Source of the DNA: Alentia gelatinosa | Taxonomy: Eukaryota > Annelida > Polychaeta > Phyllodocida > Polynoidae | Reading direction: 5' to 3' | Length of the DNA stretch: 64,000 nt | NCBI GenBank assembly: GCA_950022655.1 | Contig: OX465580.1 | Span: 1,287,122 to 1,351,121 of the forward strand | Shown: positions 24,396 to 54,072 of the stretch, piece after piece | How positions within the stretch are numbered: position 1 is the first letter of the stretch | Layout of the letters: each line of letters begins with the position of its first letter | Program-made: the position numbers and the translations under genes | The notes under the pieces: model-generated | What the model was told of the DNA's origin: nothing | Database searches by the model: none | Seen by the model: the letters and a program-made list of their open reading frames with translations, nothing else

Positions 24396-25121
24396 ACCAG
24401 TACTTACCTGATAAAACTGTGTATTTATCTGTCAGTAAACCGGTGTATATTTTGATATTTCCCTAAACGGGTCTATATTTTGATATTTAACAGGGACAGG
24501 AATACGCAGATCAGTACTTACTGGATAAAACTGTGTATTAATCTGTCAGTAAACTGGTGTATATTTTGATATTTCTCTAAACGGGTCTATATTTTTATAT
24601 TTTACAGGGACAGGAATACACAGATCAGTACTTACTGGATAAAACTGTGTATTAATCTGTCAGTAAACTGGTGTATATTTTGATATTTTACAGGGACAGG
24701 AATACACAGATCAGTACTTACTGGATAAAACTGTGTATTAATCTGTCAGTAAACTGGTATATATTTTGATATTTCTCTAAACCGGTCTATATTTTGATAT
24801 TTAACAGGGACAGGAGTATGCAGATCAGTACTTACTGGATAAAACTGTGTATTAATCTGTCAGTAAACGGGTGTATATTTTGATATTTCTCTAAACGGGT
24901 CTATATTTTGATATTTAACCGGGACAGGAATACGCAGACCAGTACTTACTGGATAAAACTGTGTATTAATCTGTCAGTAAACTGGTGTATATTTTGATAT
25001 TTTACAGGGACAGGAATACACAGATCAGTACTTACTGGATAAAACTGTGTATTAATCTGTCAGTAAACTGGTATATATTTTGATATTTCTCTAAACCGGT
25101 CTATATTTTGATATTTTACAG
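24396..25121 (+). repeat. Array of exon A acceptor copies (114/86 bp)
   Basis: Six complete copies and one partial copy of the intron end plus the first ~32 nt of DDR exon A precede the real exon. GGGACAGG occurs at 24493, 24607, 24693, 24807, 24921, 25007 and at the real junction 25121, so spacing is 114, 86, 114, 114, 86, 114; the 86-bp form lacks a 28-bp segment. Each copy carries GGACAGGAATACGCAGATCA and CAGTACTTACTGG. After CTGGA the copies diverge from the exon and reach an in-frame TAA 15 codons from the decoy acceptor. The AG at 24920 is mutated to CG; the others are intact. Confidence 0.92.
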
Positions 25122-25211
25122 GGACAGGAGTATGCAGACCAGTACTTACTGGAGTACCAGCGGGAGGAGGATGGGCCCTGGTTCCGGTTTCACAACCGAC
25201 GAGGTCAAGAG
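25122..25211 (+). CDS. ddr: DDR exon A: middle of discoidin domain
   Basis: A 90-nt phase 0-0 exon encoding 30 residues beginning GQEYADQYLLEYQREEDGPW. It aligns with the DS-domain segment of vertebrate DDRs around the conserved (G)xEFAxxYxxxYSRDGxxW and ends RRGQE, equivalent to the WGQE/HGKQ position. The acceptor is TTTTACAG at 25114-25121 and the donor GAG|GTCAGT. The previous exon should carry the first half of the DS domain, including collagen-contact residues, but I found none in 1-25121. The exon start is the seed of the array at 24396-25121. The next exon is 17.6 kb away, the longest intron in the model. Confidence 0.93.
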
Positions 25212-25689
25212 GTCAGTGCAACGCCTTCCGGTTCTACTGTTTTTATCAATATGAATATTGTACAACGGCCTGCCATGATATCTTAATTAATCATTATATA
25301 TGTAAGATGTAAGAAAATATCATTATATACCTATGACCGTATCACCTACACATACTGCCCGCTGCTACCCGTGACGTATTCATACCCGTACGTCACACTG
25401 TGACGGGGTATGTGATCACGTGACTAGCTATAATGTCGCCATTTTTAAGTATATGATAATACGAAAACGGGCTTACTGTCTTCTACGTCAAAATACCTGG
25501 TAGAATTTTCGATCAGATACATTTCTCTGCCTTTAGCATCAATAATGTTACCACGTATCTTTGACGTACGAAGACAGTAACTTGAGTAAGCCAGTTCCCG
25601 TATAATATTGCCTTGTCGCAAAGTCACCCACTCCCTATGAGGTATGTCTTGGTTTCCTCCGACTTTCAGTGAGTAGAACGTGAATTTTC

Positions 25690-28600
25690 CGTGACTACAG
25701 ATGTATGGTTTACGGTGTCATGACGATCCCGTGTGAGGATTGAGAGTCACGCGGGGTTTAGGTTCAGATGTATGGTTTACGGTGTCATGACGATCCCGTG
25801 TGAGGATTGAGAGGAACGCGGGGTTTAGGTACAGATGTATGGTTTACGGTATCATGACGATCCCGTGTGAGGATTGAGAGGAACGCGGGGTTTAGGTACA
25901 GATGTATGGTTTACGGTGTCATGACGATCCCGTGTGAGGATTGAGAGGAAGGCGGGGTTTAGGTTCAGATGTATGGTTTACGGTATCATGACGATCCCGT
26001 GTGAGGATTGAGAGGAACGCGGGGTTTAGGTACAGATGTATGGTTTACGGTATCATGACGATCCCGTGTGAGGATTGAGAGGAACGCGGGGTTTAGGTTC
26101 AGATGTATGGTTTACGGTATCATGACGATCCCGTGTGAGGATTGAGAGGAACGCGGGGTTTAGGTACAGATGTATGGTTTACGGTATCATGACGATCCCG
26201 TGTGAGGATTGAGAGGAACGCGGGGTTTAGGTTCAGATGTATGGTTTACGGTATCATGACGATCCCGTGTGAGGATTGAGAGGAACGCGGGGTTTAGGTA
26301 CAGATGTATGGTTTACGGTATCATGACGATCCCGTGTGAGGATTGAGAGGAACGCGGGGTTTAGGTTCAGATGTATGGTTTACGGTATCATGACGATCCC
26401 GTGTGAGGATTGAGAGGAACGCGGGGTTTAGGTTCAGATGTATGGTTTACGGTATCATGACGATCCCGTGTGAGGATTGAGAGGAACGCGGGGTTTAGGT
26501 TCAGATGTATGGTTTACGGTATCATGACGATCCCGTGTGAGGATTGAGAGGAACGCGGGGTTTAGGTTCAGATGTATGGTTTACGGTGTCATGACGATCC
26601 CGTGTGAGGATTGAGAGGAACGCGGGGTTTAGGTACAGATGTATAGTTTACGGTATCATGACGATCCCGTGTGAGGATTGAGAGGAACGCGGGGTTTAGG
26701 TACAGATGTATGGTTTACGGTGTCATGACGATCCCGTGTGAGGATTGAGAGGAACGCGGGGTTTAGGTTCAGATGTATGGTTTACGGTATCATGACGATC
26801 CCGTGTGAGGATTGAGAGGAACGCGGGGTTTAGGTACAGATGTATGGTTTACGGTATCATGACGATCCCGTGTGAGGATTGAGAGGAACGCGGGGTTTAC
26901 GTTCAGATGTATGGTTTACGTTGTCATGACGATCCCGTGTGAGGATTGAGAGGAACGCGGGGTTTAGGTTCAGATGTATGGTTTACGGTATCATGACGAT
27001 CCCGTGTGAGGATTGAGAGGAACGCGGGGTTTAGGTTCAGATGTATGGTTTACGGTATCATGACGATCCCGTGTGAGGATTGAGAGGAACGCGGGGTTTA
27101 GGTACAGATGTATGGTTTACGGTATCATGACAATCCCGTGTGAGGATTGAGAGGAACGCGGGGTTTAGGTACAGATGTATGGTTTACGGTATCATGACAA
27201 TCCCGTGTGAGGATTGAGAGGAACGCGGGGTTTACGTTCAGATGTATGGTTTACGGTGTCATGACGATCCCGTGTGAGGATTGAGAGGAACGCGGGGTTT
27301 AGGTACAGATGTATGGTTTACGGTATCATGACGATCCCGTGTGAGGATTGAGAGGAACGCGGGGTTTAGGTACAGATGTATGGTTTACGGTGTCATGACG
27401 ATCCCGTGTGAGGATTGAGAGGAACGCGGGGTTTAGGTACAGATGTATGGTTTACGGTGTCATGACGATCCCGTGTGAGGATTGAGAGGAACGCGGGGTT
27501 TAGGTACAGATGTATGGTTTACGGTATCATGACGATCCCGTGTGAGGATTGAGAGGAACGCGGGGTTTAGGTACAGATGTATGGTTTACGGTGTCATGAC
27601 GATCCCGTGTGAGGATTGAGAGGAACGCGGGGTTTAGGTTCAGATGTATGGTTTACGGTGTCATGACGATCCCGTGTGAGGATTGAGAGGAACGCGGGGT
27701 TTAGGTACAGATGTATGGTTTACGGTGTCATGACGATCCCGTGTGAGGATTGAGAGGAACGCGGGGTTTAGGTTCAGATGTATGGTTTACGGTATCATGA
27801 CGATCCCGTGTGAGGATTGAGAGGAACGCGGGGTTTAGGTACAGATGTATGGTTTACGGTGTCATGACGATCCCGTGTGAGGATTGAGAGGTACGCGGGG
27901 TTTAGGTACAGATGTATGGTTTACGGTATCATGACGATCCCGTGTGAGGATTGAGAGGAAGGCGGGGTTTAGGTTCAGACGTATGGTTTACGGTATCATG
28001 ACGATCCCGTGTGAGGATTGAGAGGAACGCGGGGTTTAGGTACAGATGTATGGTTTACGGTATCATGACGATCCCGTGTGAGGATTGAGAGGTACGCGGG
28101 GTTTAGGTTCAGATGTATGGTTTACGGTGTCATGACGATCCCGTGTGAGGATTGAGAGGAACGCGGGGTTTACGTTCAGATGTATGGTTTACGGTATCAT
28201 GACGATCCCGTGTGAGGATTGAGAGGAACGCGGGGTTTAGGTTCAGACGTATGGTTTACGGTGTCATGACGATCCCGTGTGAGGATTGAGAGGAACGCGG
28301 GGTTTAGGTACAGATGTATGGTTTACGGTATCATGACGATCCCGTGTGAGGATTGAGAGGTACGCGGGGTTTAGGTTCAGACGTATGGTTTACGGTGTCA
28401 TGACGATCCCGTGTGAGGATTGAGAGGAACGCGGGGTTTAGGTTCAGACGTATGGTTTACGGTGTCATGACGATCCCGTGTGAGGATTGAGAGGAACGCG
28501 GGGTTTAGGTACAGATGTATGGTTTACGGTATCATGACGATCCCGTGTGAGGATTGAGAGGAACGCGGGGTTTAGGTACAGATGTATGGTTTACGGTGTC

Positions 28601-29580
28601 ATGACGATCCCGTGTGAGGATTGAGAGGAACGCGGGGTTTAGGTTCAGACGTATGGTTTACGGTGTCATGACGATCCCGTGTGAGGATTGAGAGGAACGC
28701 GGGGTTTAGGTACAGATGTATGGTTTACGGTATCATGACGATCCCGTGTGAGGATTGAGAGGAACGCGGGGTTTAGGTACAGATGTATGGTTTACGGTGT
28801 CATGACGATCCCGTGTGAGGATTGAGAGGAACGCGGGGTTTAGGTACAGATGTATGGTTTACGGTATCATGACGACCCCGTGTGAGGATTGAGAGGAACG
28901 CGGGGTTTAGGTACAGATGTATGGTTTACGGTGTCATGACGATCCCGTGTGAGGATTGAGAGGAACGCGGGGTTTAGGTACAGATGTATGGTTTACGGTG
29001 TCATGACGATCCCGTGTGAGGATTGAGAGGAACGCGGGGTTTAGGTACAGATGTATGGTTTACGGTGTCATGACGATCCCGTGTGAGGATTGAGAGGAAC
29101 GCGGGGTTTAGGTTCAGATGTATGGTTTACGGTATCATGACGATCCCGTGTGAGGATTGAGAGGAACGCGGGGTTTAGGTTCAGATGTATGGTTTACGGT
29201 ATCATGACGATCCCGGGTGAGGATTGAGGGGAACGCGGGGTTTAGGTACAGATGTATGGTTTACGGTATCATGACGATCCCGTGTGAGGATTGAGAGGAA
29301 CGCGGGGTTTAGGTACAGATGTATGGTTTACGGTATCATGACGATCCCGTGTGAGGATTGAGAGGAACGCGGGGTTTAGGTACAGATGTATGGTTTACGG
29401 TATCATGACGATCCCGTGTGAGGATTGAGAGGAACGCGGGGTTTAGGTACAGATGTATGGTTTACGGTATCATGACGATCCCGTGTGAGGATTGAGAGGA
29501 ACGCGGGGTTTAGGTACAGATGTATGGTTTACGGTGTCATGACGATCCCGTGTGAGGATTGAGGGGAACGCGGGGTTTAG
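25690..29580. repeat. 67-bp minisatellite, about 58 copies
   Basis: Units contain CAGATGTATGGTTTACGGTA, CATGACGATCCCGTGTGAGG and AACGCGGGGTTTAGG. Copies are over 95% alike. Two common dimorphisms (GGTTCAG/GGTACAG and GGTATC/GGTGTC) are shuffled relative to each other, as expected from repeated exchange. At nearly 3.9 kb it is the largest array here. It lies in the exon A/B intron, about 480 bp after exon A, and does not contain the exon A donor. Confidence 0.97.
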
Positions 29581-29589
29581 GGTCGGGTT

Positions 29590-29830
29590 ATGGCGGGTCG
29601 TGGTCGAGCAGGAGGACTAGTTCCGGTTCCGGGTGGCCGCTTGTTCCCATCAGCTTCGCTGGTCACGTAAAACGCTGCCTGCAGGAAGACGGTTAACATG
29701 CCGGGTACCAGCGTGCAGAGATCACGTGACTCGACGCATGCGCGCTCAGCGTCTACCACAGCTGGGAGACGGAAGCGAGGCTGGATGTCATGACTCGGGT
29801 ACAATTAGACGCCGGGCTTCATTGTAGAGG
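29590..29830. promoter_or_regulatory. CpG-rich patch with E-box and NRF1-like words
   Basis: GC-rich unique sequence between two arrays, with TTCCGG ETS-like words near 29622, two CACGT(G/A) words (29663, 29724) and GACGCATGCGCGC near 29735, close to an NRF1 site. It may be an intronic promoter or enhancer; only motifs support this. Confidence 0.3.
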
Positions 29831-29869
29831 ACAATGTGGGCCGCAGAATGCGCTGCGTGATCCGTGAGC

Positions 29870-30530
29870 CCCTGAGCCACCCACCCACCACTCACTACCA
29901 CTCACCACCCCTCACAAACCCCTCACCACACCCCACCACCAGTCTCTACCCCTCACCACACCCCACCACCAGATTCTACCCGTACCACCCCACCACCACT
30001 CTCTACCCGTACCACCCCACCACCACTCTCTACCCGTACCACCCCACCACCAGTCTCTACCCGTACCACCCCACCACCACACTCTACCCGTACCACACCA
30101 CCACCACTCTCTACCCCTCACCACACCCCACTACCAGTCTCTACCCGTACCACCCCACCACCACTCTCTACCCCTCACCACAACCCACCACCACTCTCTA
30201 CCCCTCACCACCCCTCACCGCCCCTCACCACCCCTCACCACACCTCACCGCCCCTCACCACCCCTCACCACCCCTCACCACCCCTCACCGCCCCTCACCA
30301 CCCCTCACCACACCTCACCACACCTCACCGCCCCTCACCACCCCTCACCACCCCTCACCACCCCTCACCACCCCTCACCACCCCTCACCACCCCTCACCA
30401 CCCCTCACCGCCCCTCACCACCCCTCACCACACCTCACCGCCCCTCACCACCCCTCACCACCCCTCACCGCCCCTCACCACACCTCACCACACCTCACCA
30501 CCCCTCACCACCCCTCACCACTCCCCCTCC
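29870..30530. repeat. Pyrimidine/A-rich array (CCCCTCACCA, 10 bp)
   Basis: The left third has ~27-bp units (CCCGTACCACCCCACCACCA); from about 30190 it is a regular 10-bp repeat CCCCTCACCA with CCCCTCACCG and CACCTCACCA variants. G occurs almost only at the variant site, so strand asymmetry is extreme. Open frames are low-complexity. Confidence 0.95.
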
Positions 30531-30639
30531 CCCGTGTCGTGAGGTTACATACTGAGGCGGATTCATTTCGCGGATCTCGTGTCATGACTGTGGCTCGGTC
30601 CACTCTATGTACGTAGGCGGCTGATCGTGTTGACTCGCG

Positions 30640-31370
30640 GCCCGACTCGGAGCTGCTCGGAGCTGCTCATCGGGGGTACGTGGAGTCGCTCAGAAGCTCG
30701 GGGCAGCTCGGGGCAGCTCGGGGCAGCTGGGAGCTGCTCAGGGCTGCTCGGGGCTGCTCAGGGCTGCTCGGAGCTGCTCGAAGCAGGTCTTGACTGTTCG
30801 GCTCTGCTCGGAGATGCTCAATGCTGCTCGGAGCTGCTCAGAGTGGCTTTGAGATGCTCTTGGCTACTCGGGGCAGCTCAGGGCTGCTTAGCACTGCTCT
30901 GGGCTGCTCGGAAAGCTACATGGGCTGCGCAGATCTTCTCAGAGCTGCTCGGAAATCTCCGGAGGTGCTCGAAGGGCCTTAATCCGCTCATCGGAGCAGC
31001 TTGGAGCCACCCGGAACTACTCGAAGCTACTCGTGGATGCCTGAAGTTGCTTAGGACTGCTTTGGGCTGCTCGGGGCTATTCGGGGCTGCTCGGTGCCAC
31101 TCGGAGCTGATCGGAGCTGCTCGGAGCTGCTCAGAGATGTTCAGGGATGCTCGGATCTGCTCGGAGCCGGTCGGAGCTTCTCGGAGCTGCTCGGAGCTGC
31201 TCGGAGTTCGGGGATGCTCGGAGCTGCTTGGAGCTGCTCGTTGCTCGGAACTGCTCGGGGGTGTTCGGAGCCACTCGAGGCTGCTCGTTGCTCGGAACTG
31301 CTCGGAGCTTCTCGGAGCTGCTCGGAGCCGCTCGGAGCTTCTCGGAGCTGCTCGGAGCTGCTCGGAGTAG
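30640..31370. repeat. 10-bp array (GAGCTGCTCG)
   Basis: Imperfect 10-bp units of GGAGCTGCTC. The 3 x 10 relation to the codon gives open frames (Ser/Glu/Leu/Ala/Arg/Cys repeats), which I do not take as coding. The same word makes the arrays at 23090-23445 (reverse complement) and 56865-57200. Confidence 0.93.
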
Positions 31371-31589
31371 CTGAGATGACTGTGTCTATTTGACCTGCCC
31401 CTCCCTGCCCTCCTCCCGCCCTCCCGTAATTGAATGTACACGACGTGGTATCAGACGCTCGGGATTCGGATAATTAGGAGATACTTTTTAGAAACAATGC
31501 ATAATTCATGATGTACACATATAACATGCCCGAGGCAGGTCCCCGACATGATTGAGGCTACGTGTAGGGAATAAGACAAGAGTCATATC

Positions 31590-32556
31590 TCTATAAATAC
31601 TGAGTGTGTTGTAAACTAAATAACTGTGATATGAATCATAACTCTATAAATACTGAGTGTTGTAAACTAAATAACTGTAATGTGAATCATAACTCTATAA
31701 ATACTGAGTGTTGTAAACTAAATAACTGTGATATGAATCATAACTCTATAAATACTGAGTATGTTGTAAACTAAATAACTGTGATATGAATCATAACTCT
31801 ATAAATACTGAGTGTTGTAAACTAAATAACTGTGATATGAATCATAACTCTATAAATACTGAGTATGTTGTAAACTAAATAACTGTAATGTGAATCATAA
31901 CTCTATAAATACTGAGTGTTGTAAACTAAATAACTGTGATATGAATCATAACTCTATAAATACTGAGTGGGTTGTAAACTAAATAACTGTGATATGAATC
32001 ATAACTCTATAAATACTGAGTATGTTGTAAACTAAATAACTGTGATATGAATCATAACTCTATAAATACTGAGTGTTGTAAACTAAATAACTGTGATATG
32101 AATCATAACTCTATAAATACTGAGTATGTTGTAAACTAAATAACTGTAATGTGAATCATAACTCTATAAATACTGAGTGTTGTAAACTAAATAACTGTGA
32201 TATGAATCATAACTCTATAAATACTGAGTGGGTTGTAAACTAAATAACTGTGATATGAATCATAACTCTATAAATACTGAGTATGTTGTAAACTAAATAA
32301 CTGTGATATGAATCATAACTCTATAAATACTGAGTGTTGTAAACTAAATAACTGTGATATGAATCATAACTCTATAAATACTGAGTATGTTGTAAACTAA
32401 ATAACTGTAATGTGAATCATAACTCTATAAATACTGAGTGTTGTAAACTAAATAACTGTGATATGAATCATAACTCTATAAATACTGAGTGGGTTGTAAA
32501 CTAAATAACTGTGATATGAATCATAACTCTATAAATACTGAGTATGTTGTAATAAC
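31590..32556. repeat. 51-55-bp minisatellite with ~261-bp higher-order unit
   Basis: Units contain GTTGTAAACTAAATAACTGT and GAATCATAACTCTATAAATA. The linker after ACTGAGT cycles in the order ATG, none, ATG, none, GGG, and this five-unit block repeats with a spacing of about 261 bp (ATG blocks near 31760, 32021, 32282). Confidence 0.93.
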
Positions 32557-33436
32557 TGTAATATATTCATCATCACTACTGATAAAACACATCTCCCATT
32601 TACTTGTTTTTTTACCAACCTACTCGCCCACATAAACCCGTATCATTGACACTTCCCCTTTTATCGCCCACGTCCTTGACTGTCCTTGAGCAGCACTTGA
32701 GTGAGATGTGATTGTGGGAACGTCTTTACCTTGACCTGTTTACCGGTATTCACTCAGCAGCCTTCTGACACTCCTCACACCACCCTCCCTCCCATCACAA
32801 TCACATTCTGTTTACATTCACTTCATGTCCTTATAATTCATCAGCTAGATGATATTTTTCATCCCTGTTTTGGCATGTAAGGTTTTATATGATACACACT
32901 TGTCAGTTTTGTTGAGCGCGGGTCACATGCTAAATTGTTATTTAGGTTAGGAAGAGGTTATGTAGACTCTAAGTGTGCTGCAAAAACTAGTCCTTCACTA
33001 TCTGCGTGGTAGTAATGCAGAGTCTCGGCGTGACCTTGACCTTGATCAGTAGAGACGGGACCACCTGATTGACCCGCTGTTTGATATGGTTGATACTTCC
33101 GGATCCTAGACAGGCAAGTGTATAAGAGGCAGTTTACTGGGTCCAAGTGGGCTTCAGAAAATGAGCCATGGACCGAACATAACCCAAATCATTTAATTGT
33201 TATTTATTCATAACTCCACGCTCATTCATCAGTGATAAACACACCCCTTGTTCCCAGTTTCAGTGTGATTATAAAACCCCGCCACACTCTCCCCGAGTCC
33301 TGCTCGTGCTGACACCGGACCCCGACTCCCCGCCGCCTCCACACCACCCCGCAATGAAACAGGACAGATTCAGAAACAATGCCAGATGAATCAAATCACA
33401 TTACACGGCCTGACCCGGTGTGGCCCGCTGTAACGC
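32557..33436. other. Unique intronic DNA with a dispersed repeat
   Basis: 32985-33225 shares blocks with 39095-39310: GACCCGCTGTT, GGATCCTAGA, AACCCAAA followed by AATTGTTATTxATT. This suggests an old interspersed element of about 220 bp. The rest is unique, with no exon recognised. Confidence 0.5.
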
Positions 33437-33670
33437 CCGGCCCGCCCCGCACTGCCCGCCCCGCACTGCCCGCCCCGCACTGCCTGCCCCGCACTGCCCG
33501 CCCCGCACTGCCCGCCCCGCACTGCCCGCCCCGCACTGCCCGCCCCGCACTGCCCGCCCCGCACTGCCCGCCCCGCGCTGCCCGCCCCGCACTGCCCGCC
33601 CCGCACTGCCCGCCCCGCGCTGCCCGCCCCGCGCTGCCCGCCCCGCACTGCCCGCCCCGCACTGCCCGCC
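33437..33670. repeat. 14-bp CpG-rich array (CCCGCCCCGCACTG)
   Basis: About seventeen copies of a 14-bp unit, each with two or three CpGs and a GC-box-like core (CCCGCCCC). In CpG terms it is an island built from a satellite. Open frames on both strands are Ala/Pro/Arg or Gly/Arg/Ala repeats and are not called. Confidence 0.95.
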
Positions 33671-34730: not shown

Positions 34731-34734
34731 AGAG

Positions 34735-36478: not shown

Positions 36479-36815
36479 ATACACAATATTGACTGGTTTC
36501 AGATACAAGCGGCCGTATGCTCCGAGGAGTTGACGCGTAGTAATATCCGAGCGTATGCGAGGATATTGCGTAGTCAACTCCGAGGAGCATACAACCGCTT
36601 TTATCTGAAACCAGTCTATATTGTATTTATTATCCACCTTTTCTGCACAAGTGACATGTCGATATCAGTTAATTTTAGTTATGGACTATTTTTTCGTACG
36701 CACTATTTTTCCGTATGCGCCACCCGGAGCATACAACATATCTGTATGCGCCGGGTATGTCCATACACGCTGCCTATGTGTTTTCTATGGACACTTTGTA
36801 TTCGGTGGATAATAA
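36479..36815 (+). mobile_element. Fold-back element with one 73-bp unit
   Basis: The same element as 18881-20152, about 90% alike in the fold-back (GTATGCTCCGAGGAGTTGAC against GTCAACTCCGAGGAGCATAC) and in the middle (TATTTATTATCCACCTTTTC). Here the 73-bp unit occurs once. The end GGTGGATAATAA mirrors the internal TTATTATCCACC. It sits inside a small array of CTGAACAATGTGGTATGAAG units (36395-36895), which marks both insertion sides; the exact target duplication is not clear. Confidence 0.75.
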
Positions 36816-42546: not shown

Positions 42547-42826
42547 CTCGTCGTAGTGTGTCGGAAGCGCGGTGGGAGCCCCGCTGTATCACTCAGTGTT
42601 TGAGAATATGAATATCTACATTGAGATAAGATATCCCATGGAAGCTAGGTTATGTGAAAAGATGAAAACGGAGCGGGCAGGTGGGTAAAATATCTTATGG
42701 GTGAATTAGATTGGTGATCTGGAAATACAGCCTAGACAGCAGTAAGTTACCCTAGGACGTCTACTCTATACCACACATCCTTCACTGTTCCTTACAATGA
42801 CCTACAACTTTCCCGCTCTATTTCAG

Positions 42827-42974
42827 ATCTTCCAGGGCAACACCAACACGTACATCGCCGAGCTGAGGGAGGTCGATCCACCTATTATCGCTCGGAAGGT
42901 TCGCTTCATCCCGTACAGCGGGCACCCGAGGACGGTGTGCCTCAGGGTCGAGCTCTACGGCTGCCCGTGGAAAG
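42827..42974 (+). CDS. ddr: DDR exon B: end of discoidin domain
   Basis: A 148-nt exon, phase 0 in and 1 out, with acceptor CTATTTCAG and donor AAAG|GTGAGG. It encodes IFQGNTNTYIAELREVDPP, then IIARKVRFIP, then CLRVELYGCPWK. This is the C-terminal end of the DS domain, where vertebrate DDRs have LxPPxVARxVRFxP and CxRVELYGCxW. Both conserved cysteines of the CLRVELYGC block are present. No boundary duplication is seen at either edge, unlike exons A, D, G and H. The following intron (581 bp) contains a MITE copy. Confidence 0.96.
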
Positions 42975-43184: not shown

Positions 43185-43440
43185 AACAACCAGTTAGGTA
43201 TAGATTTTGGGAACTCGTTCTCCATGCCCGTACAAGTATTGCAGTCCGTTCTCCATGGTTTATATCCTATGTGACATCCATATCTTTAGTGTTTACAGGG
43301 GTGAGATAAATACAGAAAGCAACTCGTTTTAGCCGTCGTTGTTCGTTGTTCTCCAACTCGTTTGAATGCTACGTGATATTCACCCCACATCAAACTCGTG
43401 GAAAATGACGACTTTGACTTCTTGGTTTCTTCTTTAGCAC
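43185..43440 (+). mobile_element. MITE-like copy in exon B/C intron
   Basis: Resembles 2150-2580, including GGGAACTCGTTCTCCATGCC, GGGGTGAGATAAATACAGAA and GACGACTTTGACTTC. The fold-back half is shorter here because of a deletion around CACTCGG. It fills nearly half of a 581-bp intron. Confidence 0.7.
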
Positions 43441-43555
43441 AACATTCTAAGATTAATTTTTACATATTACAGAAACCCTTGTCAGAGTCAACTCGATCTA
43501 ATTAATTGTACTTGTGTTTATTTTTTGTAAAAAGCTGCTACGTTTAATGTTGTAG

Positions 43556-44080
43556 ATGGGAGTGTATCGTACTCCATGCATCGTGGAGAACGGAGAGGCA
43601 CGGAGGTGGATCTGTACGACTTCACGTACGACGGTAAGATCGAGAACCTGCAGCTCAGCGGGGGGCTCGGCCAGCTCACCGACGGGGAAGTGGGCGAATC
43701 CAACTTCCGCCTGGATCCCAAAGGCTTCGGCAATAAAGGCTATGAGTGGGTCGGCTGGAGGAATGAGTCCCACCACGGCAAGCCCATCGAAATAATCTTC
43801 AAATTTGATGATGTGAGAAACTTCTCGACGATTCGGATCCATGCAAACAACATGTTTAATAAGGATGTACGCGTGTTTAAACGAGCCAAAGCCTACTTCA
43901 GTATCGGTGGAGATTACTACACCTCTGAGGCGGTGGATTTCAGGTACATGCGGGACACGCTGATTGAGTTCGCGAGGCCGGTCATCATCCCGATCCCCAA
44001 TCAGATCGGAAAGTTTGTGAAACTCCAGCTGTTCTTCGACTCGAAGTGGATGATGATCAGCGAGATTCAGTTTGAATCAG
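43556..44080 (+). CDS. ddr: DDR exon C: discoidin-like domain
   Basis: A 525-nt exon, phase 1 in and 1 out, with acceptor TTGTAG and donor TCAG|GTGAGT. It holds the whole DS-like domain: SYSMHRGERRGTEV, TYDG, LSGGLGQLTDGEVGESNF, YEWVGWRNESHHG, IEIIFKFDDVRNFSTIRIHA, NNMF, KAYF, FVKLQLFF and WMMISEIQF. The glycosylation sequon in WRNES is at the position conserved in vertebrate DDRs. The 175 residues contain no cysteine: where vertebrate DDRs have VHCNN, (E/Q)C(Y/R)F and (K/Q)C, this protein has IHANN, KAYF and KLQ. It is likely an extracellular domain that packs against the DS domain. Confidence 0.97.
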
Positions 44081-44960: not shown

Positions 44961-45279
44961 GCGGCCGAGTTTGTGATTACAAAGTTTTTACAAATGGTGG
45001 TCATGAAAGAGAACAAGAACGTGTCTCTAAATGAAAAAAAGAGAATATTAAATAGAATATCAATTGGCAAAAAGCGGAATGGACAAAGAAGGGGCGTGCT
45101 CTCCCAGCATTGTGTTGTTTGGTAAAGTCGTTCTCCCCCTCAGTTCATGCGTCATGCTAAATGTCTCTAAACAGAGGATACCTAAATACGTTCTGTTACA
45201 GATAGAAAACAATCACATGCGTTTCGACAGATTACAGTTCAGGGTTAGTCATAAAAAATAGATTATGTTCCATGTTATA

Positions 45280-46024
45280 CTAGTTACTAATGTATTTTTA
45301 GATTACGCTTCATGTTAAGGGAAAGTTATAAACTAGTGACATACATTTTCAGATAAAAATCCCATACTAAAGACTAGTTATCAACTAGTCCCTGGTTAGT
45401 TTCATTTTCTTTCAGAATACGTTCAACATCAAGGGCTATGGTTATGAACTAGTGAAATGTATTTTCAGATTACAATCCACATTAAGGTCCTGTTATGAAC
45501 CAGTGACTTGTATTAGAGAGATACTGGTCCCAGCTGAAAGAATATTAATGTTACAACATATTACGTAATCTCTTTAGATCCTTACCAGTGACATTGATAT
45601 TCGTTCTCCCCTCGCCTTGCTTCCCTATTACTATATACCTTGAAATAGTGATGAAAATAGAAATTTGTTGACCTCCCATCAGTGGGGTAGCCATCCTTTA
45701 TTGTGTAACAACTCGGATGTTTTCTTTTTGTATCTAAGCTTTGATCTGATTGATCTAGACATTTCACTGGTCAACCTTGGTATGAACACCTCAACCTAGA
45801 TATAAAAACGTCAGCCTAGGCATGCAAACTGTAGTTACTACACTCGTAGCAGCATTATGTAACTATAGAGTGTTCATCTATTGGATTTGTATATTATGTT
45901 ACTATTTATATAAGTGTATTTTCAGATTAGGTTACTATTTATATAAATGTATTTTCAGATTACACTACTCTCTATATAAATGTATTTTTAGATTACGTTA
46001 CTATTTATGTAAATGTATTTTCAG
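45280..46024 (+). repeat. Array of exon D acceptor copies (33-bp period)
   Basis: Immediately before exon D the junction ATGTATTTTCAG|ATTAC is repeated at exact 33-bp steps: decoy exon starts at 45926, 45959 and 45992, real start 46025. Older, diverged copies of the same junction with ~70-bp spacing lie at 45289-45475 (TATTTTTAGATTACG, TATTTTCAGATTACA). Because 33 is a multiple of three, use of 45992 or 45959 would insert 11 or 22 residues in frame without a stop, while 45926 meets TAG at once. Confidence 0.9.
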
Positions 46025-46183
46025 ATTACGCGGTCGGAAACTTCACACCAGAAATCCCTCCGTCAACGACGCGACCCCCAGGAGGGTCGACGAAGGACCC
46101 AAACATTGTCCAGGTCATAGATCTCCTACCCAACGGTAAACAGAACAAGTCTGTTGGGTCGAGGAAGGTACCCCCTACTTACG
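46025..46183 (+). CDS. ddr: DDR exon D: extracellular juxtamembrane linker
   Basis: A 159-nt exon, phase 1 in and 1 out, encoding about 53 residues beginning DYAVGNFTPEIPPSTTRPPG. Rich in Pro, Thr, Ser and Gly with an N-glycosylation sequon (NFT) and NKS, as expected for the stalk between the DS-like domain and the membrane. Acceptor TATTTTCAG, donor TACG|GTGAGT. Both edges are duplicated nearby (upstream array at 45926-46024; one downstream partial copy at 46503-46560). Sequence conservation with vertebrates is low, but phase and position in the gene make the call firm. Confidence 0.88.
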
Positions 46184-46470
46184 GTGAGTTCTGTGTGTTG
46201 TTACGATCCAAAATATTGGTATGTGAAACATACAGTTATATCCCTTGGCCTAATGGACCAAGCTGTGTAACACGCCAATGGAGGCAATCCCTTGGTTACG
46301 ATCAACAGGGTCGCCCCCATGTGGTAAACACGGAGCCAGCATATAATCCTGATCACGATGTACTCGAGTCAGTCCGGTCAGCACAGCGCATTATAACATC
46401 ATCAGCAATAAAGCTTGTAACGGACGAAGCCTTGGAGTCATTCATTCAGTTTACTCTTCACAACCGATAG
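46184..46470 (+). other. In-frame read-through ORF after exon D
   Basis: If the exon D donor is not used, the frame stays open for about 95 more codons to TAG at 46468-46470. It includes IPWPNGPSCVTRQWRQSLGY and ends near FIQFTLHNR. I do not recognise the peptide; composition is ordinary, not repetitive. A retained intron would yield a secreted receptor ectodomain without membrane helix. It may instead be chance or the remnant of a mobile element. Confidence 0.35.
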
Positions 46471-46502
46471 TAACAGTGTGTGTGGGCAATGTGTGTGAAA
46501 TC

Positions 46503-46560
46503 TTACCTCACAAGAGCAAGTCTGTGGGGTTCAGGAAGGTACCTCCTACTTATGGTGAGT
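46503..46560 (+). pseudogene. ddr: Partial copy of exon D end with donor
   Basis: Resembles 46141-46196 with about seven differences over some 50 nt: AGTCTGTGGGGTTCAGGAAG, then GTACCTCCTACTTATG|GTGAGT. No convincing acceptor precedes it, and extension of exon D to this donor would cross the TAG at 46468. It is best read as a two-copy junction duplication. Confidence 0.75.
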
Positions 46561-47320
46561 TCTGTGTGTGTGTGTGTGTGTGGGCAGTGTGTGAGATCTC
46601 TTACCTATGTGGTCAGTGTCAGGGAAAGTAGACACCAATAATGAAGAGAAGTTAAAAAAGAGAAAGTTTACAGGCAGAAAACCCAGTTTGGATGTTTTTG
46701 ATAGTCATTTGGGAATACAACATCATCCATATATCACTACAACAAATGTGGTTCTGAAAATTTAAATTGTAGCATTGATATTGAGTTACAAAATGGACCC
46801 TACATCTTTCAACATTAAATACATGTACTGGTGAAGCAATATAGCCATGCTTTAATGCAACACATATTATTTACATGAGTAAAACAATACCTAAAGATAT
46901 GGTAGGCTCCGGAGTGTGGCTGCCTTTTACATCAGGCTGCATATCTCCTAACCCACCTCAGGTGATCACTGTGGGGCCTCTGTCTAAGCAGCAAAGTGAA
47001 TGTAGACACATGGGAAGTGATACAGATTGGGCAGAGGATAGATGTGGCTAATGATAGTGGCTTCTGTATGAAGTAATGGGTCATGGACAATAGTATTGTA
47101 TCAGCCTTGAAGCTCGAATCTAAAACAGTACAACAACTGGAGCGATTCTATCTTCCAAGTGTCCTTGTCTATATGTGAAATAAATTATCTTTCTAATAAA
47201 TGTTATTTGAGATGAGAGGAAATGAGTAATCTTCTTGATAAACAAGTTACACTGAGATATAAATCATCATGTGGAGGACTAGGAGAACCTCATCAGTGAG
47301 TGGGGTCAGTGAGGCTCCTC
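46561..47320. other. Unique intronic DNA
   Basis: A short GT run (46560-46585), then AT-rich single-copy DNA with no exon or RNA gene recognised. Confidence 0.35.
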
Positions 47321-47693
47321 TAAGGCCACTAAAAAAACCAACTTGTTTCTCATCACCGCGCGCGTCAAAAAAACGATTTTAGAAGATTTTCTTTTGATAG
47401 ATGAACCTTCATAGAAATTATGAAACGTATGTGTATTTAGTATCAAATTAAAGCTCCTGATGTCAGGGATGCATTAAATGTATAGCCAGTAAAAATCTGG
47501 AAACCCCGTGTAAGCAGACACCCCGCGTAAGCAGCCACTTTGGCCCGGATCGAAGGGTGTCCGCTTTAATATGCGGGGTTTTACTATATGTCTGCCATCT
47601 TTGATATAGCAAAAAAAAAAAAAAAAAAAGTGCCCTCGTCATATTTTTCATGGCTTGGTGATGAGAAACAAGTTTGTTTTTTTAGTGGCCTAA
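47321..47693. mobile_element. Harbinger-like MITE with TAA duplication
   Basis: Element 47324-47690 has ~37-bp terminal inverted repeats (GGCCACTAAAAAAACCAACT at the left, GTTTGTTTTTTTAGTGGCC at the right) and is flanked on both sides by TAA, the 3-bp target duplication typical of PIF/Harbinger. It is 367 bp long with no transposase. Inside are GTAAGCAGACACCCCGCGTA and GGGTGTCCGCTTTAATATGC, another inverted pair. A reverse copy with one eroded end lies at 61470-61810. Confidence 0.8.
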
Positions 47694-48459
47694 GTGAGAG
47701 GAGGTGTCTGTCTGTGTGTGTCTGTGTGTCTGTCTGTGTCTGTGTCTGTCTGTGTGTGTATGTGTGTGTCTGTGTGTGTGTCTGTCTGTGTGGGTATGTC
47801 TGTGTGAGAGGCTGAGACTAAAGTAGGAGCTTCATTTAAACAGGGCTTCATTGTTTTATACCCACCCGGAAATAGACTCCTAAACGCGTCTGCCTCCCGT
47901 ATTTACACTCAGACTGCTAACTGTGAGGAGGTTTGTTTTGTCAGGAGTTTTAAACAAGTACAGCACTTAAATGAGAGGGCACTGTTAAGAACCATTAGAC
48001 TATATATGGAGAGGTTATTTGGGAAGATATAAATGGAATTGGTCACATATTGTGTTTTAATGCATGATATAACCTTCATAAGGTTGTTGGAAATACAAGA
48101 CAATTATGAGATTAATGAATGTAGATGGAAGCGTAATTGATGCTGAAATCTTTAAAACAAACATGAAGGCATTTAGAAAATAAGTGTCTAATCCATATCA
48201 ACATGAATGATAAAACATTGAGATTTAAGAAATACAAGACCAAAGAAACCTAAAAAAAAAAAAAAATTGGAGAAGAATTTAAGTAGATCTAAGGAAGAAA
48301 GGGTTATGTATACATCATGAAGAGGTCTTTTGGTCGCCCTCCACCTTCAGCATTGGGCCTTACAATCCCTCACATCGTCATGTGATTATTCAGTACGTTC
48401 ATACTAACCTAGTTTCTGTGTAACACATTTATATATCATATCGTATGACCTTCTTTCAG
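47694..48459. other. TG-rich repeat and unique intronic DNA
   Basis: 47700-47815 is a TGTGTGTC(TG) microsatellite. The remainder up to exon E is AT-rich, including an A-run near 48252; no exon is seen. Confidence 0.4.
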
Positions 48460-48744
48460 AGGATGCAGACAGCGCCGGGAAGGTGACATCCACTCTGAGT
48501 ACCTCCGCAGCTGAAGGCTCGAAGGCCGAGCGCGAGAAGAAGTCGCTGGACGAGGAGTACATCGGGATCATCATCGGAGCTCTCGCCGCTCTCATACTGC
48601 TCCTGTTTCTAGTTATCGTCATCATTATTATCCGTCAGCGACACAGGAAGTCCAACAACAACCACCAGACTCTGCTAAAAACCTCCATCGTGCCTCGGCA
48701 CGTGACCCTCGACCTCAATGACCTTCAGGGTAACCCTATCAACG
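48460..48744 (+). CDS. ddr: DDR exon E: transmembrane segment
   Basis: A 285-nt exon, phase 1 in and 1 out, with acceptor TTCTTTCAG and donor AACG|GTGAGT. It encodes a Ser/Thr-rich acidic stretch ending AEREKKSLDEEY, then a single hydrophobic helix (IGIIIGALAALILLLFLVIV followed by IIII), then the basic stop-transfer RQRHRK. The following residues (TLLKTSIVPRHVTLDLNDLQ) are the start of the cytoplasmic juxtamembrane region. The topology is that of a type I receptor, as in DDR1/DDR2. No boundary repeats are present. Confidence 0.96.
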
Positions 48745-49242
48745 GTGAGTCGCGGGTTGTCTTCAGATCTGTTCACATTGTGAGACCCAGCTCATTATGA
48801 CCTGACAAAATACACTCAGACAAGTTTACATGCAAAATATCCATGATGCTTGATACAAATTATAATTTCTTCTTCAATATTTGCTGTATTCCTTCGATTT
48901 TTATCATTGATGTTTGAATCGACAGCTTCCTTCATTTCCTTCACTATAATCAGTGACCTTCCTGGTGTCTCTCTTGTCGTTCTGCTAGTTCCGAATATGT
49001 CAGCTAATGATTTCCTCATAAATACTCAATTTCTCATAAGTTTTAAAAATCGTGGAAGATAATGTATATGTTTCTTAATGATGAAGCAATATTTCCAGGA
49101 GGTTCTCTCTGTCTTATGCCAAATGGCCACCCTAATCTTGCATTTAATAGAAATATTTTAAAATGGACGAATTTCTTAAAGATCTCAGAATCATCTTTAT
49201 CTTGTCACTACATCATCATAAATACTTATTTCGTTTCTGCAG

Positions 49243-49556
49243 AGGCCACCCTGAGTCGAGACTATGCAGTTCCAGACATCACCAAATCATCATTTGGCAC
49301 ATTACGCCCCAACATCCCGCCCCCTGCCTACACTCCCAACATGTACGGCCACTCGACTCTGCACCTGCCACCGGCCGCGTCACACTACGCTGCAGCAGAC
49401 GTGGTCAACATTCCCAACATTCAGGGCGTGTCGGGGAGTAACGTGTACGCTGTGCCCAATACTGACTCCATGTGGACGGAGGACCTCGCCATCATAGAGT
49501 TCCCGCGAGATAATCTGCAGTTCATCGAGAAACTAGGCGAGGGGCAGTTTGGAGAG
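49243..49556 (+). CDS. ddr: DDR exon F: juxtamembrane and kinase glycine loop
   Basis: A 314-nt exon, phase 1 in and 0 out, with acceptor TTTCTGCAG and donor GGAGAG|GTGAGT. It encodes a Pro/Tyr-rich juxtamembrane region with PPPAY (a PPxY-type motif) and several tyrosines that could be phosphorylated docking sites (DYAVPD, NMYGHS, NVYAVPN). It ends with the start of the kinase domain, FPRDNLQFIEKLGEGQFGE, where GEGQFG is the glycine-rich ATP loop. The valine that completes GEGQFGEV is the first codon of exon G. Confidence 0.97.
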
Positions 49557-50138
49557 GTGAGTCTTACGAAATGTTCACAAATAGCTGTTATTGTAAAATG
49601 AAGAAACAGGGGGTTGTTGAATTTAACTTAAGCCTAGAAAACTACAGGGTACAAGGAGAACTGGTATGAGGGTTATCGTTTAATAATACTCAAGCTCGTT
49701 CGCTATGATAGTCCTAGCCAGTTGAAACTCATCCATAGACCCTCCAGAGGTTACTAAACTCCCTATTATCACCCTAGGTAAGTAAAGTTCCACTCCCGAC
49801 TACCTGGCCACACCACAACTACATGAACCACAGTTTTCCCATTTATAATTGGAGAAACTGAATATAATTTCGGATTTACATTTAGAAATAGCTGAAATTT
49901 CCATTTCTGGCAATATATTTCCAATTTGAAGATTTATAAAAACCGTTAGGGCCTACACTGCAATAATTGTGGGTCTCTCATCATACAACGTCGGCAACCA
50001 GCGAACACCGGACAGACCGAATTATAGGATACCTCAAAGGGGTATAATAAATCTAAGAACTGACCCCTTAACTGTATCATCTTTAGGGATATCCATGAAG
50101 AATAATTTCAAAACCTGTGAGAGAAATTCCCTCCACTT

Positions 50139-50146
50139 AAAAAAAA
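50139..50146 (-). terminator. Pol III T-run after tRNA-Leu
   Basis: Read on the minus strand, a run of eight T starts 5 nt after the tRNA 3' end. This is a strong RNA polymerase III terminator and supports the tRNA being a functional gene. Confidence 0.8.
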
Positions 50147-50151
50147 CATAT

Positions 50152-50233
50152 TGGCAGCGGTGGGATTCGAACCCACGCCTCCGAAGAGACTGGTGCCTTA
50201 AACCAGCGCCTTAGACCGCTCGGCCACGCTACC
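50152..50233 (-). tRNA. tRNA-Leu (anticodon AAG)
   Basis: An 82-nt gene on the minus strand starting GGTAGCGTGGCCGAGCGG. The anticodon loop is TTAAGGC between stems CTGGT and ACCAG, giving AAG; the long variable arm expected of leucine tRNA is present, and the T arm reads GGGTTCGAATCCC. A box (TGGCCGAGCGG) and B box (GGTTCGAATCC) are intact, with no CCA encoded, as in eukaryotes. It lies antisense in the exon F/G intron, just left of the exon G acceptor array. It may be transcribed independently of DDR. One tRNA in an intron is not unusual. Confidence 0.96.
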
Positions 50234-50337
50234 TCGTGTCGGGGTCTGACACGGTTAATTTACTTACCGCTCACAATCGTCGTAGTTTAAACAGTAAATA
50301 AACAAACACTTCTAAGGATCTTCAACTTCAAGCATCT

Positions 50338-53003
50338 TAATGTACCTGGTTCTCGCTGTAGGTTCACTACTTACCCTGTATGACCGCTCGTCTATAATGT
50401 ACCTGGTTCCCGCTGTAGGTTCACTACTTACCCTGTATGACCGCTCTATAATGTACCTGGTTCTCGCTGTAGGTTCACTACTTACCCTGTATGACCACTC
50501 GTCTATAATGTACCTGGTTCTCGCTGTAGGTTCACGTCTTACCCTGTATGACCGCTCTCTATAATGTACCTGGTTCTCGCTGTAGGTTCACTACTTACCC
50601 TGTATGACCGCTCTCTATAATGTACCTGGTTCTCGTTACACGCTCTATAATGTACCTGGTTCTCGCTGTAGGTTCACTTCTTACCCTGTATGGCCACTCT
50701 CTATAATGTACCTGGTTCTCGCTGTAGGTTCACGTCTTACCCTGTATGGCCGCTCTATAATGTACCTGGTTCTCGCTGTAGGTTCACTTCTTCCCTGTAT
50801 GACCGCTCTCTATAATGTACCTGGTTCTCGCTGTAGGTTCACTACTTACCCTGTATGACCGCTCTCTATAATGTACCTGGTTCTCGCTGTAGGTTCACTT
50901 CTTACCCTGTATGACCACTCTCTGTAATGTACCTGGTTCTCGCTGTAGGTTCACTACTTACCCTGTATGACCGCTCTCTATAATGTACCTGGTTCTTGCT
51001 GTAGGTTCACTTCTTACCCTGTATGACCGCTCTATAATGTACCTGGTTCTCGCTGTAGGTTCACTACTTACCCTGTATGACCGCTCTCTATAATGTACCT
51101 GGTTCTTGCTGTAGGTTCACTTCTTACCCTGTATGACCGCTCTATAATGTACCTGGTTCTCGCTGTAGGTTCACTACTTACCCTGTATGACCGCTCTCTA
51201 TAATGTACCTGGTTCTTGCTGTAGGTTCACTTCTTACCCTGTATGACCGCTCTATAATGTACCTGGTTCTCGCTGTAGGTTCACTACTTACCCTGTATGA
51301 CCGCTCTCTATAATGTACCTGGTTCTCGCTGTAGGTTCACTTCTTACCCTGTATGACCACTCTCTGTAATGTACCTGGTTCTCGCTGTAGGTTCACTACT
51401 TACCCTGTATGACCGCTCTCTATAATGTACCTGGTTCTTGCTGTAGGTTCACTTCTTACCCTGTATGACCGCTCTATAATGTACCTGGTTCTCGCTGTAG
51501 GTTCACTACTTACCCTGTATGACCGCTCTCTATAATGTACCTGGTTCTTGCTGTAGGTTCACTTCTTACCCTGTATGACCGCTCTATAATGTACCTGGTT
51601 CTCGCTGTAGGTTCACTTCTCACCCTGTATGACCGCTCTCTATAATGTACCTGGTTCTTGCTGTAGGTTCACTTCTTACCCTGTATGACCGCTCTCTATA
51701 ATGTACCTGGTTCTTGCTGTAGGTTCACTTCTCACCCTGTATGACCGCTCTATAATGTACCTGGTTCTCGCTGTAGGTTCACTACTTACTATGTATGGCC
51801 GCTCTATAATGTACCTGGTTCTCGCTGTAGGTTCACTACTTACTATGTATGGCCGCTCTATAATGTACCTGGTTCTCGCTGTAGGTTCACTACTTACTAT
51901 GTATGGCCGCTCTATAATGTACCTGGTTCTCGCTGTAGGTTCACTTCTCACCCTGTATGACCGCTCTCTATAATGTACCTGGTTCTCTTTACGCTCGTCT
52001 ATAATGTACCTGGTTCTTGCTGTAGGTTCACTTCTTACCCTGTATGGCCGCTCTATAATGTACCTGGTTCTCGCTGTAGGTTCACTTCTCACCCTGTATG
52101 ACCGCTCTCTATAATGTACCTGGTTCTTGCTGTAGGTTCACTTCTTACCCTGTATGGCCGCTCTATAATGTACCTGGTTCTCGCTGTAGGTTCACTTCTC
52201 ACCCTGTATGACCGCTCTCTATAATGTATCTGGTTCTCTTTACGCTCTCTATAATGTACCTGGTTCTTGCTGTAGGTTCACTTCTTACCCTGTATGGCCG
52301 GTCTCTATAATGTACCTCGTTCTCGCTGTAGGTTCACTTCTTACCCTGTATGGCTGCTCTATAATGTACCTGGTTCTCACTGTAGGTTCACTACTTACCC
52401 TGTATGACCGCTCGTCTATAATGTACCTGGTTCTTGCTGTAGGTTCACTACTTACCCTGTATGACCGCTCTCTATAATGTACCTGGTTCTTGCTGTAGGT
52501 TCACTTCTTACCCTGTATGGCTGCTCTATAATGTACCTGGTTCTCGCTGTAGGTTCACTTCTTACCCTGTATGACCGCTCGTCTATAATGTACCTGGTTC
52601 TCGCTGTAGGTTCACTTCTTACCCTGTATGGCCACTCTCTATAATGTACCTGGTTCTCACTGTAGGTTCACTTCTTACCCTGTATGACCGCTCTCTATAA
52701 TGTACCTGGTTCTCGTTACACGCTCTATAATGTACCTGGTTCTCACTGTAGGTTCACTTCTCACCCTGTATGACCGCTCTCTATAATGTACCTGGTTCTC
52801 GTTACACGCTCTATAATGTACCTGGTTCTTGCTGTAGGTTCACTTCTTACCCTGTATGACCGCTCTCTATAATGTACCTGGTTCTCGCTGTAGGTTCACT
52901 TCTTACTATGTATGGCCGCTCTATAATGTACCTGGTTCTCGCTGTTGGTTCACTACTTACTCTGTATGGCCGCTCTCTGTAATGTACCTGGTTCTCGCTG
53001 TAG
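50338..53003 (+). repeat. Array of exon G acceptor copies, ~47 units
   Basis: Units of 54-58 bp contain TAATGTACCTGGTTCTCGCT, GTAG|GTTCAC and TACTTACCCTGTATGACCGC. The last unit runs straight into exon G, so each unit repeats the intron end and the first six or so exon bases. Shorter degenerate units (GTTACACGCTC, TTTACGCTC) are scattered through it. The unit nearest the exon has lost its AG (GCTGTTGGTTC at 52941), the only such loss I noticed in this array. On the minus strand most units carry CAGGGTAAGTA, a strong donor sequence. Confidence 0.95.
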
Positions 53004-53131
53004 GTTCACCTGTGTGAGGCCCAGCAGATGAGCGACTATCTTGGCGAGGAGTTCCTTCTGACCTGCTCGGCATCGACCTCGGTGCTGGTCGCCGTCAAAA
53101 CCCTGCGCCGAAACGCAGACCCTCAGGCCCG
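53004..53131 (+). CDS. ddr: DDR exon G: kinase N-lobe with ATP lysine
   Basis: A 128-nt exon, phase 0 in and 2 out. It encodes VHLCEAQQMSDYLGEEFL, then a variable loop, then VLVAVKTLRRNADPQAR, where VAVK has the beta-3 lysine that contacts ATP. Vertebrate DDRs have GEVHLCE and LLVAVKxLRxDA at the same place. Acceptor CGCTGTAG and donor GCCCG|GTGAGTAG. The exon sits between two independent arrays, each built on its own splice site (50338-53003 and 53132-53630). Correct choice of both sites is needed to keep the kinase frame. Confidence 0.96.
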
Positions 53132-53630
53132 GTGAGTAGTAATGGATTACAGTATATATAGTATCATGCCGAAACGCAGACCCTCAGGCCCGGTGAGTAG
53201 TAATGGATTACAGTATATATATCATCATGCCGAAACGCAGACCCTCAGGCCCGGTGAGTAGTAATGGATTACAGTATATATAGTATCATGCCGAAACGCA
53301 GACCCTCAGGCCCGGTGAGTAGTAATGGATTACAGTATATATAGCATCATGCCGAAACGCAGACCCTTAGGCCCGGTGAGTAGTGATGGATTACAGTATA
53401 TATAGCATCATGCTGAAACGCAGACCCTCAGGCCCGGTGAGTAGTAATGGATTACAGTATATATAGCATCATGCTGAAACGCAGACCCTTAGGCCCGGTG
53501 AGTAGTAATGGATTACAGTATATATAGCATCATGCCGAAACGCAGACCCTCAGGCCCGGTGAGTAGTAATGGATTACAGTATATATAGCATCATGCCGAA
53601 ACGCAGACCCTCAGGCCCGGTGAGTAGACG
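53132..53630 (+). repeat. Array of exon G donor copies, 61-bp period, 8 units
   Basis: After the real donor (exon end 53131), the last ~26 exon bases and the donor (GCCGAAACGCAGACC(C/T)T(C/T)AGG, CCCG|GTGAGTAG) recur every 61 bp, with exon-like ends at 53192, 53253, 53314, 53375, 53436, 53497, 53558 and 53619. All eight keep GTGAGTAG. Use of any of them would read CGG TGA, a stop directly after the normal exon end. Confidence 0.97.
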
Positions 53631-53699
53631 ATGACTGTACTTCAGTGTAGATCTACGGTCTACAAGTAGATTACAGGATTAAAGTACATGTGTGGATTA

Positions 53700-53865
53700 C
53701 TAAAGAAGAAACCAAAAACGTTTGGTCAAAGTCATTATCCTCCACAAGTTTTATGTGGAGTGATATGAACGAGGCACAGCCGAGTGAATGTTGCATAACA
53801 TTCAAACGAGTTCGAGAACAATGACTTTGACCAGAATGAGTTGCTTTCTCTATTTATCTTACCTC
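53700..53865 (-). mobile_element. MITE-like copy, reverse orientation
   Basis: Read on the minus strand it gives GATAAATAGAGAAAGCAACT and GGTCAAAGTCATTGTTCTCG, matching 2155-2320. It lies in the exon G/H intron and keeps both fold-back halves (TCAAAGTCATTATCCTCCAC against GAACAATGACTTTGACC). Confidence 0.75.
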
Positions 53866-53884
53866 GCTATAAGAACACAATGGA

Positions 53885-54072
53885 TATATGTTTCACACTC
53901 TCTCTCTCTCTTTCTTTCTCTTCTCCTACCTTCCCCCTTTCCTATTACATGTATATCGAACGTATTCACCCTCTACTTTCAGGTCTGATTTCCACTTTCT
54001 CTCTCTCTTTCTCTTCTCCTACCTCTCCCCTTTCCTATTATAAATTCACGTCTTCACGTCTTCTCCTTTCAG
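53885..54072 (+). repeat. Duplicated exon H acceptor (90-bp step)
   Basis: The tract TTTCTCTTCTCCTACC...TTTCCTATTA...CTTTCAG|GTCTGATTTCCA occurs twice; the decoy exon start is 53983 and the true start 54073. Ten or so exon bases are copied. Using the decoy keeps phase (90 nt) but runs into TAA after about 20 codons. Confidence 0.85.

Follow-up and report, generated by a model that had tools for sequence, protein, structure and literature searches.

In a 64-kb stretch of Alentia gelatinosa contig OX465580.1 (hereafter the window), the + strand carries ten exons (A to J) of a DDR2-like discoidin domain receptor kinase gene, and we found that 6 of its 19 mapped junctions (10 acceptors and 9 donors) possess extra direct copies in the adjoining intron. 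The copied junctions are the acceptors of exons A, D, G and H and the donors of exons D and G, both sides of exon D and both sides of exon G being affected. At all six sites, the working junction is the copy attached to the exon body. We consider it probable that these copies are boundary-spanning minisatellites of the type called 'mirages', generated by ordinary tandem duplication and tolerated since the outer copy stays on the exon.

Copied junctions were detected in two ways. A 20-mer placed across each junction and allowed up to four mismatches revealed extra copies at the six junctions and none at the other 13, with a chance expectation of at most 0.13 matches per junction. Of the 66 matches recovered in total, 65 are + strand copies inside the neighbouring intron, and a single one occurs on the - strand at 14254. 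Furthermore, local alignment within 1.5 kb (score of at least 45) returned a spanning copy at the same 6 of 19 junctions compared to 8 of 300 random points, a contrast that overstates the excess as these points were drawn from non-repeat, non-exon sequence, avoiding arrays; one of the nine random points reaching a score of 45 (46528) is the D-donor copy itself. Four junctions are multiplied to four or more copies, and a tandem repeat finder (TRF) called five of the six sites, the D-donor two-copy duplication remaining uncalled.

The first-pass annotation of this DNA had described repeats built from the exon edges of one DDR gene at the A, D and G acceptors and the D and G donors, plus a two-copy H acceptor, and our copy-by-copy count confirmed them. 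Its statement that the true junction is the terminal copy was borne out at all six sites, each outer copy touching the exon body. At the D donor, copying itself stands, with two copies 371 bp apart. The array proposed there does not, as the copies form a dispersed 61-bp duplication without a TRF call. Units, periods and sequences all differ from one junction to the next, which supports the separate origin that had been suggested for each.

Table 1. Copied junctions and exons of the DDR2-like gene. Copy counts include the working junction.
Feature	Position	Strand	Description
A-acceptor array	24398..25153	+	7 copies spaced 114/86, each joining the intron end to the initial 32 nt of exon A; working copy last
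Decayed repeats in the intron of the D-acceptor array	45259..45514	+	Older repeats, no TRF call at score 50; D-acceptor core with one mismatch at 45291 and 45458
D-acceptor array	45893..46030	+	4 copies of a 33-bp unit that includes only 6 exon nt; working copy last
D-donor duplication, working copy	46142..46201	+	42 exon nt plus 18 intron nt
D-donor duplication, second copy	46513..46573	+	In the intron, displaced 371 bp
G-acceptor array	50338..53009	+	45 copies of GTAG/GTTCAC (slash marks the junction), period ~56, units with only 6 exon nt; working copy last
G-donor array	53107..53627	+	9 copies with a period of 61, each including 25 exon nt; working copy first
H-acceptor duplication	53905..54084	+	2 copies at a distance of 90 bp, each with 12 exon nt; working copy second
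Exon A	25122..25211	+	Second half of the discoidin domain (GQEYADQYLLEYQRE...)
Exon B	42827..42974	+	Junctions without copies
Exon C	43556..44080	+	Junctions without copies; acceptor moved from 43535 by orthologue comparison
Exon D	46025..46183	+	
Exon E	48460..48744	+	Transmembrane segment; junctions without copies
Exon F	49243..49556	+	Junctions without copies
Exon G	53004..53131	+	Kinase domain, VHLCE...PQAR
Exon H	54073..54270	+	Donor without copies
Exon I	55291..55525	+	Junctions without copies
Exon J	56009..56353	+	Terminates in a stop; acceptor without copies

When spliced in silico, the ten exons yield an open frame of 808 residues followed by a stop (exon C acceptor at 43556). The exon edges are predicted and were set by splice consensus, reading frame and alignment with 14 orthologues. 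An earlier model that placed the exon C acceptor at 43535 gave 815 residues and was dropped, as the 14 orthologues lack the seven extra residues. The array coverage, the rotation and array-end nulls and the local-alignment test presented here used 43535, while the first-unit null and the junction probes used 43556; neither edge falls inside an array. Comparison of positions 1-25 kb with nine orthologues revealed no recognisable upstream DDR exon. Therefore, the first half of the discoidin domain probably sits outside the window.

Among the best 120 of 656 hits (7992 candidates scored), the top-scoring full-length relatives belong to molluscs, nemerteans, Lingula and annelids, and most of them align at 50-60% identity across almost the full length. 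In a tree of 17 DDR proteins, the gene paired with that of the annelid Ridgeia (support 95/93), and the pair recurred at 99/96 in a 36-row tree that carried a long-branch warning; neither tree contained a row named as amphioxus. Topology tests rejected a grouping with fish (approximately unbiased test, p-AU 0.011), did not reject a grouping with molluscs (p-AU 0.088) and found a grouping with both annelids compatible with the data (p-AU 0.22). These comparisons suggest that the gene likely groups with lophotrochozoans, probably with annelids, and they make an amphioxus host unlikely.

Copies within the arrays differ from each other. In the A array, each of the six inner copies carries 1-4 changes (mean 3.0) relative to the 32 bases of the true exon edge, and pairs of inner copies differ at 1.6 on average; over the adjoining 30 intron bases, the inner copies differ from the true copy at 2.0 and from each other at 2.5. 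The exon part thus looks homogenised among inner copies while the intron part shows the opposite, and nothing firm follows. The first A unit is cut within its exon part, and a 49-bp minisatellite (23561-24398) stops within a few bases of the array start, where two unrelated arrays abut. The D-donor copies share a 61-bp stretch (42 exon nt and 18-19 intron nt) at 88.5% identity. Much of their spacer is occupied by an open frame (46202-46470) that ends in a stop and is part of a longer open reading frame (ORF, 45931-46470); a known element was rejected as the identity of this spacer, its 83-residue ORF end having neither a Pfam family nor a homologue. In the G-acceptor array, one additional copy reads TTG for TAG, and some shorter units lack the motif. 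We also rejected a G-acceptor unit containing more than 6 nt of exon G, as alignment against 2000 shuffles gave no signal (0.37 of the shuffles reach the score). A tRNA-Leu gene (anticodon AAG, 50152-50233, - strand) lies in the F-G intron just upstream of this array.

The residues encoded at the exon edges indicate the direction of copying at four junctions. The exon A edge (GQEYADQYLLEYQRE), the G edge (VHLCE), the G end (ADPQAR) and the H start (SDFQKE) all match orthologues, to varying degree, from molluscs to a fish. Because these edge residues are common to orthologues, the exon is the ancestor of the repeat unit at the A, G and H acceptors and at the G donor. At the D acceptor, the copied bases encode D-Y where several orthologues have E-P, so the edge of exon D may have been converted by its own array. 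The D donor falls in an unconserved stretch. At both D junctions, either direction of copying would fit the sequence.

We propose that a short segment happening to contain a junction would have been duplicated by replication slippage, unequal exchange or end joining, and that copy number would then have risen to at least four at four of the junctions. A duplication of this kind would be nearly neutral, because the exon keeps a complete junction in the copy that adjoins it and the extra copies fall in the intron. In a minisatellite-laden genome, junction-spanning units would survive as intronic ones do, while units internal to exons would be purged by selection. The repeat load of the window is indeed high, with 57 TRF clusters (55 after merging the three of the G-acceptor array) covering 47% of it. 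Arrays cover 49% of non-exon bases compared to 81 of 2448 exon bases (with the 43535 exon C edge), and these 81 bases are the exon edges of the five junction arrays, the exon bodies being free of arrays. The ordinary intronic minisatellites of the window have comparable unit lengths, copy numbers and neighbourhood, and lie wholly outside the mapped exons.

Furthermore, the transcript would have to use the outermost copy because nearly all inner copies lead to an early stop: in silico, use of an inner copy instead of the true site introduced a premature stop in 61 of 63 cases. From this anatomy we infer the mutational steps, the near neutrality of the copies and correct splicing. Altogether, the anatomy is best explained if selection tolerates junction-spanning duplications in a genome laden with repeats.

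Whether the six copied junctions exceed chance depends on the null, and the nulls disagree. Five junctions fell inside arrays compared to 9.0 expected when arrays were rotated (P(>=5) 0.92), and array ends lay within 40 bp of a junction 5 times compared to 2.6 expected (P 0.14), which is no significant excess; both results favour our proposal. A first-unit model, in which one unit per array is thrown at random on repeat-collapsed sequence, scores only whether the original unit contains a junction, because expansion adds copies without moving the junction. Using main unit lengths, this model gave 5 observed vs 0.88 expected for the 31 arrays of the window with units of at least 20 bp (P 0.0015), 5 vs 1.13 for all 55 arrays (P 0.0048) and 5 vs 0.67 for the 13 arrays of the 24.3-57 kb region (P 0.0003). 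Taking instead the smallest or largest period of each array put the expectation at 0.61-1.27 and P at 0.00015-0.0072. For three composite arrays (A, G acceptor and 31583), the main unit was assigned by hand, and the D donor, having no TRF call, stands outside the null counts. We think that the first-unit model is the right null for tandem growth, though it rests on assumptions.

Three observations weigh against our proposal in its simplest form, in which junctions are hit by uniform chance. First, the excess under the first-unit model hints at more than uniform seeding would give. Second, between 42.5 and 57 kb, all four arrays with units of at least 20 bp sit on junctions (4 of 10 for any unit size). 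Third, the D acceptor may have gone through two or more rounds of copying. Single-mismatch versions of its core, at 45291 and 45458, precede the working site by roughly 720 and 560 bp and lie among decayed repeats spaced 51, 116 and 167 bp, unlike the 33-bp array. Allowing up to three mismatches gives 7 core matches across the window compared to 0.11 expected, namely the working site, five others in its intron and one on the - strand at 42713. Alternatively, the young array may have grown out of the old one.

In a rival reading, splice junctions would be favoured birthplaces of minisatellites, either because junction DNA breaks or slips more or because a junction kept by selection re-templates arrays while intronic seeds decay. 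Five arrays on junctions where the first-unit model expects 0.61-1.27, 6 of 19 junctions affected with both sides of exons D and G among them, and older and younger copies side by side at the D acceptor all point this way. However, the P values are post hoc, coming from a single gene selected for its pattern, and no per-base excess was observed. Moreover, when the count is restricted to arrays with at least 12 exon bases, which drops the D and G acceptor arrays (6 exon nt each), 3 hits remain, with P of 0.05-0.10 in the window and 0.02-0.06 in the 24.3-57 kb region, values that are somewhat too high as the null lacked the matching restriction. We therefore regard favoured junctions as unlikely, albeit the most serious competitor. 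The splice-site-directed mechanism raised in the first-pass annotation fares accordingly: per base, the window holds no excess (5 vs 9.0), and the excess appears only under the first-unit model.

A stronger version, to which we give slightly less credence still, would make junctions permanent birthplaces. Because selection preserves its sequence, an intact junction could reseed arrays repeatedly while purely intronic seeds drift away. If so, repeat-rich genomes of distant animals should carry introns with layered generations of false splice sites, to which the older and younger D-acceptor copies would point.

That the copies are retained for a role in splicing, either as tandem alternative acceptors lengthening the protein or as decoys sending transcripts to decay, appears improbable. 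Two inner D acceptors (+33 and +66 nt) do stay open in frame and would add 11 or 22 residues in a poorly conserved stretch ahead of the membrane segment. Likewise, among inner copies recognised through their exon portion, the splice dinucleotide is retained in 5 of 6 for A, 44 of 45 for the G acceptor and 8 of 8 for the G donor; one of the 63 inner sites, in the A array, has CG for AG. Conversely, the premature stops that accompany 61 of 63 alternative uses argue against such a role, and young arrays would retain splice signals merely through recency.

Transcription-linked damage such as R-loops, which the first-pass annotation had offered as a possible driver, is more doubtful again and found little compositional support. 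Its appeal is mainly one of location, together with the A array, which is mildly rich in runs of three or more G (14.6 per kb compared to 10.8 in the window, with a coding-strand GC skew of 0.15), and the two-copy D-donor stretch of 61 bp (skew 0.27, one such run). In contrast, G+C content is 0.20-0.48 across the five tandem arrays, and four of these lack such G runs, namely the D acceptor, G acceptor, G donor and H arrays (skews of 0.07, -0.19, 0.06 and -0.71, respectively). An assembly artefact, with mis-joined reads or two haplotypes placed end to end, is the least credible reading of all, as the copies differ from each other, the periods differ by site, and like arrays fill the window far from junctions.

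Several other features of the window were recorded. The longest arrays span 3.9 kb (67-bp unit, 25696-29581) and 3.2 kb (43-bp unit, 8924-12097). Three arrays with a 10-bp unit look alike by eye (GCTCGGAGCT-like; 23131-23445, 30696-31367 and 56870-57207) and read in some frames as SCSELF/GAAR peptides. An interspersed element of about 120-180 bp occurs at 1912-2555, 43207-43385 and 53692-53863, in both orientations and mostly 80-82% alike. An inverted pair (47321-47622 and 61514-61813) is 91% identical over 181 bp and 85% over 84 bp, and contains short tandem units (ACCCCGCGTAAGCAGAC). Finally, a 258-bp interspersed repeat is present at 18882-19128 and 36480-36735 (89% alike); the second copy has an open frame without a Pfam match.

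The copies may do no harm and simply reflect a genome rich in short repeats. A lophotrochozoan case this rich suggests that mirages are a general outcome of a high minisatellite load and not a cephalochordate quirk. Junction arrays offer a natural test bed for how the splicing machinery selects one among many near-identical sites, and equally for the suggested origin of new introns from copies of this sort. They are also a warning to gene predictors, as false exon edges adjoin true ones.

The published literature allows the arrays to be placed among known systems. Mirage minisatellites were described in amphioxus Adh3 (first reported by Canestro et al. 2002, as cited in later papers) and in the globins BflGb6 and BflGb9, with units of 10-72 bp (Adh3) or 150-160 bp (globins) and many copies bearing AG or GT (PMC3087553). 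Their length differs between alleles or assemblies, and the authors held splicing to be undisturbed (PMC3087553, PMC3902484); these published cases speak for our proposal. As in the cephalochordate mirages, tandem units here span the intron/exon boundary at both acceptors and donors, clearly at the A, D, G and H acceptors and the G donor, and only loosely at the D donor; H has two copies. The authentic junction lies outermost at 6 of 6 sites and the frame is open through the ten exons, as the excerpted mirage papers imply for their own cases. Unlike those mirages, the gene does not point to a cephalochordate host but groups with Ridgeia and other lophotrochozoans, the host being no part of the structural definition, and 6 of 19 junctions of a single gene are affected. 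The parallel with amphioxus drawn in the first-pass annotation is therefore right in kind (PMC3087553, PMC3902484).

Lancelet PGBD5 provides a second comparison, with imperfect 60-bp and 108-bp repeats over splice sites at two places in the gene, present in 2 and 3 copies in one assembly and 7 and 6 in another (PMC3902484). Its repeats overlap splice sites as in the DDR gene, but at two places compared to six junctions. Human segmentally duplicated genes contain variable internal tandem repeats with an average unit of about 30 bp, some of them at an exon-intron boundary; boundary repeats were tied to novel introns as a possible result, and half of all these variable repeats lie in the coding sequence of young primate paralogues (PMC2812944). 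These resemble the DDR arrays in that units of minisatellite size expand within genes, although junction-spanning units with a true outer copy are not clear in the excerpted text. Intron gain by tandem duplication has been modelled (PMC3087553), some new Drosophila introns have been ascribed to tandem duplication of coding sequence (PMC2891723), and a case was described in potato RdRp (PMC4974935). Those systems likewise involve a duplicated segment with splice signals, but the ten-exon DDR frame uses no copy and contains no new intron. An earthworm metallothionein paper, as excerpted, places its minisatellites inside an intron and not at a boundary. Among the matches listed in the open-licence literature, no title or abstract describes a lophotrochozoan junction minisatellite. 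As far as these searches show, the DDR gene therefore displays a known kind of structure, dense within one gene and in a branch of animals that is new to the literature searched.

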